From Acidimicrobiales bacterium (GTDB lineage Bacteria; Actinomycetota; Acidimicrobiia; Acidimicrobiales; SZUA-35), in NCBI GenBank assembly GCA_013003535.1, contig JABDIY010000116.1, positions 1 to 64,000 on the forward strand: a DNA stretch of 64,000 nucleotides. Direction: 5' to 3'. Below the pieces are notes generated by a model that did no database searches, was not told where the DNA came from, and saw only the letters and a list, made by a program, of their open reading frames with translations. The position numbers were made by a program, and so were the translations under genes. Every line of letters starts with the position of its first letter. The stretch's first letter is position 1. Below are positions 16,885 through 32,170 of this stretch, piece by piece.

Positions 16885-19265
<2,381 letters not shown>

Positions 19266-30547: not shown

Positions 30548-31635
30548 CCGCAGCCCGAACCACCGGTCGCACTCGACAGGTTTTCGTGGTGATGGAGGTG
30601 ACGCTCCTGCTGGCGATCCCTCTCCTCGGCTACGCCGGGTTCCGCACGCTGCTGGACACCCGTTCCGGAACATTCATCGAAAACCCTGGGCCGGATGATC
30701 CCGGGTGGCTAGCGCTCGTCGACCCCTCACCGCTCACCACGGTGGTGGAGGTTGGCGACCAGGGAACCGTAACTGGTCTCGCTGTGATAGCGGAGCTGGG
30801 GCAAACCACCACGGGTGGAGCTGTCGTCTTGATCCCTGCGGAGATGGTCTTTGCCGAAAAGAAACTGGCGTCGCTCTCACCTGTGGATGCCGCTGCGGTC
30901 GTGGAAGACATTTTGAAGCTTCGAATTCCCGCCATCGAAGTTGTGGACGCCCAACGGTGGGCGCAACTCCTCCAAGACACCACCTACAGTCTCCAGAATC
31001 CCGATCCCGTTCCCGACGCCACCGGCGCGGTCGTGTTCGGAGTTGGGGAGGTAGAGGTGGATGGCGGCCGCGCTGCGCTCTTCCTGGGTCGAACTGGCGA
31101 GGGCGCCGATCCTTTGGCTTCGCTTGTACGACGTGAGCTCTTTTGGACCGAGTTGCTCGCCAAGCCGCCACCGATTGGGACAGATCCACTGGGCCGAGTG
31201 CTTCACACGGTTGCCGACGGTCCTCACGAGGTGGTCGTCGTGCCATTCGCCCGAAGTATTGGTGGCCCACCGGAACCCCTCGTTGACGAGGTCGAGGCGC
31301 TCGTCAACCGCGTGGTGCCTTTTCCGGTCGCAGGCGATGTTGGCGAGCGTTACCAAGCGACCGTCGAGGATCGCACGGGCAGCGCTGACCTCGACCAGAT
31401 CGCCAGGAACCTCGCCGGCCGGGGAGTCGAGGTTGTGGCGATCGCCAACGGCTCGGTCTTCGACAATGCGCTCACTGCGGTTCGCGTCAGTCCGGAGTTC
31501 ACCGGTCGTGAAGCGCTAAGCGAGTTCTTTTCCGGCATTCCGGTTGTCACCGATGTATCGATGAGCCCGTCGGATCCAGTGGTGCTTCAATTGGGCCCCG
31601 ACTTCCAACAGGCGCTGGAGCTGGTTGTTCCGTAG
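30544..31635 (+). CDS. Membrane-anchored protein with a LytR C-terminal (LytR_C) domain
   Basis: A 363-residue protein with one N-terminal membrane helix (about residues 12-32) and an extracytoplasmic remainder. The last 100 residues (YQATVEDRTGSADLDQIARNLAGRGVEVVAIAN, ending in VVLQLGPDF) match the LytR_C domain found at the end of LytR-CpsA-Psr ligases. The middle part occupies the place of an LCP domain, but I cannot see the usual arginine-rich catalytic motifs, so it is probably a diverged or inactive LCP-type protein. The call rests on the C-terminus and on the nadD neighbourhood. Confidence 0.7.
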   Translation: MTAARTTGRTRQVFVVMEVTLLLAIPLLGYAGFRTLLDTRSGTFIENPGPDDPGWLALVDPSPLTTVVEVGDQGTVTGLAVIAELGQTTTGGAVVLIPAEMVFAEKKLASLSPVDAAAVVEDILKLRIPAIEVVDAQRWAQLLQDTTYSLQNPDPVPDATGAVVFGVGEVEVDGGRAALFLGRTGEGADPLASLVRRELFWTELLAKPPPIGTDPLGRVLHTVADGPHEVVVVPFARSIGGPPEPLVDEVEALVNRVVPFPVAGDVGERYQATVEDRTGSADLDQIARNLAGRGVEVVAIANGSVFDNALTAVRVSPEFTGREALSEFFSGIPVVTDVSMSPSDPVVLQLGPDFQQALELVVP

Positions 31636-32019
31636 CTATGCCGACTGCGTCTGGAAGCGAGGAACGTCGGACCACAACCGTTCGAGGTTGTAGTAAGAGC
31701 GAGTCTCGGAATGGAAGACGTGGACGACGAACCCCCCGAAGTCCATCAACACCCAGGTGAGGCTGTCGAGCCCTTCAATCCTCAACGGTTTCACGCCGGC
31801 TCGAGTGAGCTCGGCTTCAATGTTCTCCACAATCGCCCGAACCTGACGGGGATTTGAGCCACCGGTCACAACGAACCAGTCGGTGATGCCCATTACATCT
31901 CCAACAAAGAACGCCGTAGTGTTTTCCGCCTTGCGGTCCTCGGCTGCCTCGAGCGCAATGCCGACGTGCCGACGAAGATCTGCATCCTCACGGGCCCGTT
32001 CTATTTCTTTGTCGGACAG
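31636..32019 (-). CDS. rsfS: Ribosomal silencing factor RsfS
   Basis: Binds uL14 and blocks subunit joining in starved cells. The core is clear: ITDWFVVTGGSNPRQVRAIVENIE, then LTWVLMDFGGFVVHVFHSETRSYYNLERLW. The first ordinary start, ATG 31893, falls inside the domain and would drop the conserved ALEAAEDRKAENTTAFFVGDV. The frame is open upstream to a TAA near 32104 but contains no ATG, GTG or TTG. CTG at 32019-32017 has GGAG 8 bases before it and gives a normal 127 residues. The gene converges on the LytR_C gene, with their stop codons touching (TAG|CTA). Confidence 0.82.
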   Translation of the reverse strand: MSDKEIERAREDADLRRHVGIALEAAEDRKAENTTAFFVGDVMGITDWFVVTGGSNPRQVRAIVENIEAELTRAGVKPLRIEGLDSLTWVLMDFGGFVVHVFHSETRSYYNLERLWSDVPRFQTQSA

Positions 32020-32097
32020 GGTGACATCTCCAAGTTGGATGAATACCGGCGGCCTTCGGTGGTGGGGCCGACGGTAAGGGCAGTGTGAGGTCTTGAG

Positions 32098-32170
32098 TGG
32101 AGCTTAGGAGAATTGAACTCCTGACCTCTTCCATGCCATGGAAGCGCTCTACCAACTGAGCTAAAGCCCC
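32098..32170 (-). tRNA. tRNA-Ala (anticodon GGC)
   Basis: The reverse strand forms a 73-base cloverleaf: acceptor GGGGCTT with AAGCTCC (one G-T pair), D arm AGCTCAGTTGGTAGAGC, anticodon loop ATGGCAT (GGC) on a CTTCC/GGAAG stem, T arm AGTTCAATTCT. It lies 78 bases upstream of the rsfS CTG on the same strand. Confidence 0.96.

Follow-up and report, generated by a model that had tools for sequence, protein, structure and literature searches.

A conserved CTG codon as the probable start of rsfS in a family of Acidimicrobiales, with a possible role in keeping RsfS synthesis low

The rsfS locus

The window analysed here is a stretch of 64,000 nucleotides from an Acidimicrobiales bacterium (contig JABDIY010000116.1), and it carries rsfS on the minus strand directly behind a tRNA gene (Table 1). 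The gene is convergent with nadD and with a neighbour that we take to be LytR-C-like (LytRC), the stops adjoining at 31635/31636; the domain search gave no Pfam match for this neighbour. Read from CTG, the 127-residue protein matches the RsfS domain over most of its length in PF02410 (1.5e-28) and TIGR00090 (1.2e-28), far exceeding both cut-offs, and its TIGR00090 score of 99.2 bits, against a cut-off of 56.9, makes it a member of the RsfS (Iojap/YbeB) family.

Table 1. Features of the rsfS region, in coordinates of the window
Feature	Position	Strand	Basis
CTG, inferred rsfS start codon	32017..32019	-	sole in-frame NTG before the core; CTG with SD in 24/35 family loci
GGAG, Shine-Dalgarno (SD) motif, 8-base spacer	32028..32031	-	SD-CTG association in relatives
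rsfS coding sequence, CTG to TAG, 127 codons and stop	31636..32019	-	PF02410, TIGR00090, solved RsfS chains
Internal ATG, first canonical in-frame codon, within the conserved core	31891..31893	-	not kept as ATG in the family
Out-of-frame ATG, eight-codon frame and TAG, judged incidental	32001..32027	-	ATG there in 2/24 CTG loci
tRNA-Ala(GGC) directly upstream of rsfS, containing the in-frame TAA 32106-32104	32097..32170	-	likewise in L003, L004 and L005 of the genus

The TAA that precedes the rsfS frame lies within the tRNA gene, and from there to the internal ATG 31893 the frame contains no ATG, GTG or TTG. Through this first canonical codon, the only NTG codons in the frame are the CTG at 32019-32017 and the ATG itself. 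The CTG is separated from GGAG by ATGTCACC (32027-32020). An earlier note on this DNA, made from the sequence alone, had described the missing canonical codon, the CTG and its SD motif exactly, and the out-of-frame ATG that it reported is also present: ATG 32027-32025 begins a frame encoding MSPCPTKK, which ends at TAG 32003-32001. A scan of the region for promoters and terminators found none. In the window, the leader between tRNA-Ala and rsfS (31975-32096, minus strand) folds somewhat better than shuffled versions of itself (z -2.56), and part of GGAG is paired; this fold plays no part in the argument below.

CTG at the probable start of rsfS within the family

Of the 39 genomes of the family, 35 yielded RsfS, and five of these 35 belong to the genus of the window. 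SD motifs were scored as matches of 3-6 bases from AAGGAGGT with a spacer of 4-11, and the limit of 3.4 amounts in effect to four matching bases. In 24 of the 35 loci the apparent start is a CTG preceded by an SD motif: 20 are strict, unrivalled calls, three have a canonical rival, and one has an SD score just below the limit, with CTG as its only NTG codon. The remaining 11 loci have GTG with an SD motif (three), TTG with an SD motif (one), ATG with an SD motif (two) or a canonical codon without one (five). Eight of the 35 (L001, L002, L003, L012, L014, L020, L024 and L125) lack any canonical in-frame codon upstream of the core, and rsfS thus resembles infC and sigR, in that many relatives share one non-canonical codon where the gene apparently starts, in place of a canonical one. 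The weak start for which the earlier note proposed to search relatives is indeed conserved. Its counter-argument, that relatives might have an ATG nearby, fails in general, although a certain or possible canonical start is present in 11 of the 35 loci.

Of the 24 residues that follow CTG, 22 are Ser, Thr or Asn, which at the second position are typical of protein N-termini. AGC is the commonest second codon there (10/24). CTG is also associated with SD motifs in a codon-blind test that took every in-frame codon upstream of the core and assumed no start codon: over the 35 family loci, 23 of 47 CTG codons follow an SD score of at least 3.4, whereas of all 1399 codons 142 do so (p=5.1e-12, an optimistic value as kinship is ignored). 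The runner-up is AGC (11/30 behind an SD motif), the same codon that most often comes second after CTG. This codon-blind association provides the SD support that goes with a conserved non-canonical start of the infC and sigR kind.

In a tree of RsfS, 34 of the 35 family loci fall in one supported clade, on which CTG needs at least 20 changes, a figure that depends on few alignment columns. The locus outside the clade (L128, rsfS of G011) perhaps sits on a foreign contig in its bin. On comparison of these sequences, CTG 32019 is very probably the start codon of rsfS in the window.

The out-of-frame ATG has no such history. It occurs at -8 in two of the 24 CTG loci and opens an eight-codon frame in one of them, while in the other, L003, the frame does not end at eight codons. 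The suggestion in the earlier note that this ATG competes for ribosomes is not borne out by so sparse a distribution, and control by an upstream open reading frame (leader peptide) was rejected, as a conserved short frame over the start is lacking.

Distribution in the order and the phylum

The search of the order gave 362 matches beyond the family, of which 128 were read. CTG is again the codon most associated with a preceding SD motif (20/77, p=2.1e-4, kinship ignored). Strict CTG calls number 15 of 128, which is near the 0-11% noise of well-populated control groups, so that outside the family only CTG loci without an alternative carry weight. Such loci, with CTG behind an SD motif and without a good rival, make up all five of one family (f13) and one locus each in f6, f12, f17, f23 and f24. 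They also include Ca. Microthrix parvicella (L114) and its relative L097, in both of which CTG lies three codons after the in-frame stop. Other families of the order have ATG or GTG, some of them with a -10-like motif, which suggests a leaderless mRNA.

Across the phylum, TIGR00090 found RsfS in 117 of 118 genomes, and 70 loci were read, namely the 30 best matches and 40 spread over families. No canonical codon is present 19-60 codons before the anchor in 22 of the 70, compared with none of 30 loci of frr (p=1.5e-4), where the frr control consists of the 30 best matches and so differs in spread from the rsfS sample. Judged by the lengths of the open frames, 16 of the 22 have no canonical codon back to the stop, eight of these from one family (f78). 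The clearest case is a distant actinobacterial order (that of G523), which has CTG in 11 of 11 loci, with an AGGAGG-type SD motif in ten, and one to seven codons separate the in-frame stop from this CTG. CTG is also found in some loci of f75, f99, f67 and f97, and ATA or ATT follows AGGAGG in some loci of f77, f83 and f89. The order of G514 (L347, L350-L352, L363, L441-L450) is erratic: the codon behind a near-perfect AGGAGGTG-like motif, or one close to it, is ATA, GTA, GTG, ACA or ATT, and in three genomes CAA, TGA or TAG. At a further locus (L389) the AGGAGGTG motif precedes GTC, the first in-frame codon after TGA, as in Streptomyces sigR.

Most actinobacterial families sampled have GTG or ATG at rsfS, which argues against a universal rule. 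The named Lachnospiraceae loci mostly have ATG with an SD motif, and rsfS of E. coli K-12 is annotated from TTG. No relative was found on viral contigs.

Other genes as controls

The neighbouring genes of the family served as a control, in the form of orthologue groups built from segments of roughly 20 kb in each of 20 relatives, together with 24 kb of the window. Among the 21 rsfS members, CTG has the best support as start in 14, whereas in 19 other groups it does so in only 9 of 204 members (p=1e-11). This count omits one group of ten, presumed to be a spurious antisense frame, and becomes 9/214 when the group is included. The rarity of CTG in the neighbours implies that the family makes no general use of it as a start. 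As a positive control, the same reading was applied to infC at 33 family loci (L264-L293, L328-L330), where it gave ATA at 31 and ATC at two, with no canonical in-frame codon in 31 of the 33; the lineage therefore possesses the best-known non-canonical start.

The earlier note had also pointed to obgE as a second ribosome-assembly gene with a weak start, hinting at a shared control feature. The codon at its expected start (window 16918-16920, plus strand) is indeed ATC, and a short upstream frame contains no ATG, GTG or TTG. The part about control did not stand, since all nine relatives compared have ATG or GTG, with ATG in all four congeners among them. The ATC, which may be a private mutation, an error or a true start, is confined to this genome, and obgE was set aside as a parallel to rsfS, having no bearing on its control.

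An altered initiator tRNA was considered as well. The usual anticodon stem-loop string occurs in 31 of the 39 family genomes and in one of the five of the genus (G000, G002, G003 and G004 are without it). A longer pattern, with up to three mismatches allowed, matched in none of the five genus genomes, in which missing contigs and a differing sequence are indistinguishable.

Gene order around rsfS

The usual order in the family is nadD, the LytR-C-like gene and rsfS, all in one direction, and in relatives outside the genus the last two were likewise seen to run the same way. In the window and three of its four congeners, rsfS lies behind tRNA-Ala. The CTG has thus been kept in the genus despite the move of rsfS out of the nadD-LytRC row. 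Where it was measured, the distance from the LytR-C stop to the rsfS start ranges from -8 to 184 bases.

Alternative explanations

Two alternatives would do away with the CTG start altogether. Translation could begin at ATG 31893, the first canonical codon in the frame, with the upstream part left untranslated. Solved bacterial RsfS chains align from about residue 15-25, counted from CTG, and ATG 31893 is residue 43, inside the aligned core; a start there would remove 42 residues, including conserved core matched in those chains. The earlier note was correct that the conserved N-terminus reaches upstream of this ATG, as the first conserved segment would be lost. The codon at this position is ATG in just 11 of 35 family loci and otherwise mainly a Leu codon. 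The solved-chain alignment and the lack of conservation together rule the internal start out, and we give it practically no credence. An error of sequencing or assembly, in which a base lost between ATG 32027 and CTG hides an in-frame ATG start, could be imagined because this ATG is two bases off the rsfS frame and the assembly is a draft in 221 contigs. However, in two members of the genus, L002 and L005, CTG follows GGAG and no such ATG is present, and CTG recurs in 24 of 35 family loci. The frameshift that the earlier note named as a possible refutation cannot account for the same CTG in many genomes; the relatives rule it out for the family pattern, and it is scarcely credible for the window itself.

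Two further alternatives accept the CTG and deny it a meaning of its own. It could be a relic of translational coupling, from a time when the start of rsfS lay within the last bases of the upstream LytRC gene (CTGA) and its identity was of little importance. Overlaps of four to eight bases with the LytRC stop do exist, in L190 (CTGA) and in L194 and L202 (GTGA), and the base after CTG is A in many loci. Of 20 family segments examined, 18 have LytRC directly upstream on the same strand, but in 15 of the 18 the gap is 13-184 bases, and in the genus of the window the gene upstream encodes a tRNA, yet CTG is still there with an SD motif of its own. The measured gaps imply that coupling accounts for some loci and not for most, which leaves this explanation a slim chance. 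Alternatively, CTG may be the true start without regulatory meaning: if little RsfS is needed, drift to weak codons would be tolerable next to a good SD motif. Start codons interchange freely in the family and the order (ATG, GTG, TTG, CTG), some families are apparently leaderless, and most sampled families have ATG or GTG. Selection may merely have tolerated a weak start without favouring it. Against drift stand the retention of exactly CTG across the family and its fixation in a distant order beside strong SD motifs, and the absence of any frr locus without a canonical codon in the same phylum. In addition, a reported reconstruction of 61,358 AUG starts contains only two AUG-to-CUG switches (PMC5622118), which makes drift to CUG rare. 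We consider this explanation unlikely, though it deserves to be taken seriously.

A weak start under possible IF3 control

The reading that we prefer, with a probability of roughly 0.6, is that rsfS joins infC and Streptomyces sigR as a gene kept weak by a non-canonical start and probably tuned by IF3. The position, the codon, the SD motif, its conservation and its recurrence come from comparison of sequences; from these we infer the use of the start, selection for its weakness and IF3 as the sensor. Translation of rsfS would begin at CTG 32019, which the initiator tRNA would read as methionine with the aid of GGAG. CUG initiation complexes are reported to be less stable than those on AUG, GUG or UUG (PMC11497404), and RsfS is described as binding uL14 and blocking subunit association (PMC7125091). 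Selection would maintain the weak start and so keep down the amount of this inhibitor of subunit joining; that the weakness is selected seems to us somewhat the better bet.

How much RsfS is made would then depend on how strictly start codons are selected, and most likely on IF3, as for infC and sigR. IF3 represses non-canonical starts, as demonstrated for Streptomyces sigR, and the self-control of IF3 in E. coli acts via the non-canonical start of infC (both as given in PMC5472188). A shortage of IF3 relative to 30S subunits would raise RsfS synthesis, and an ample supply would lower it; the combination of an SD motif with a poor codon would make this synthesis both low and IF3-sensitive. By analogy with these systems, we tentatively name IF3 as the main sensor, at a little below even odds. 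A joint action of IF1, IF3 and RsfS has been reported in E. coli (PMC13246957). We speculate further, and regard it as rather unlikely in full, that rsfS is a second infC: its start would be repeatedly non-canonical across Actinomycetota (CTG, ATA, perhaps ATT, GTA and GTC), RsfS synthesis would read out IF3 activity, and one fidelity circuit would balance the two anti-association factors, IF3 of the 30S and RsfS of the 50S subunit, with RsfS perhaps limiting its own weak, slow-joining initiation complexes.

Comparison with known systems

Retention of a non-canonical start is known for few bacterial genes, and those that have been studied are control points. An apparent CTG start in this bacterium and in many relatives suggests that the ribosome brake RsfS is kept low and adjustable. 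If this is true, rsfS ties ribosome silencing to start-codon fidelity, and its starts will be missed or mis-set by gene finders restricted to ATG, GTG and TTG. A literature search of open-licence papers returned no recognisable description of a CUG start for rsfS.

In E. coli the same gene has a weak non-AUG start, UUG (PMC10917681), which differs from CTG in counting as canonical; the same source reports no polyamine effect on its translation. In S. aureus, ccpN (AUA) and cvfC1 (AUU) also have conserved non-canonical starts, and extended SD motifs there are described as lowering initiation (PMC13009471). They belong to another phylum, use other codons and encode unrelated products, and their starts were verified by retapamulin profiling and reporters (PMC13009471). 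The actinobacterial sigR of Streptomyces likewise has a non-canonical start that is conserved in relatives and stands behind a strong SD motif (PMC5472188). Its GTC start is confined to one genus and was tested by mutation and IF3 alleles, whereas the putative CTG start of rsfS, seen in sequence comparison, spans families and a distant order. A further parallel is infC, a translation-factor gene with a conserved non-canonical start (AUU, AUC or AUA) through which IF3 regulates itself. IF3 and RsfS are alike in that both are described as hindering subunit joining (PMC13246957). Since rsfS has CTG and its product is not IF3, the control would be a putative cross-control and not direct autoregulation.
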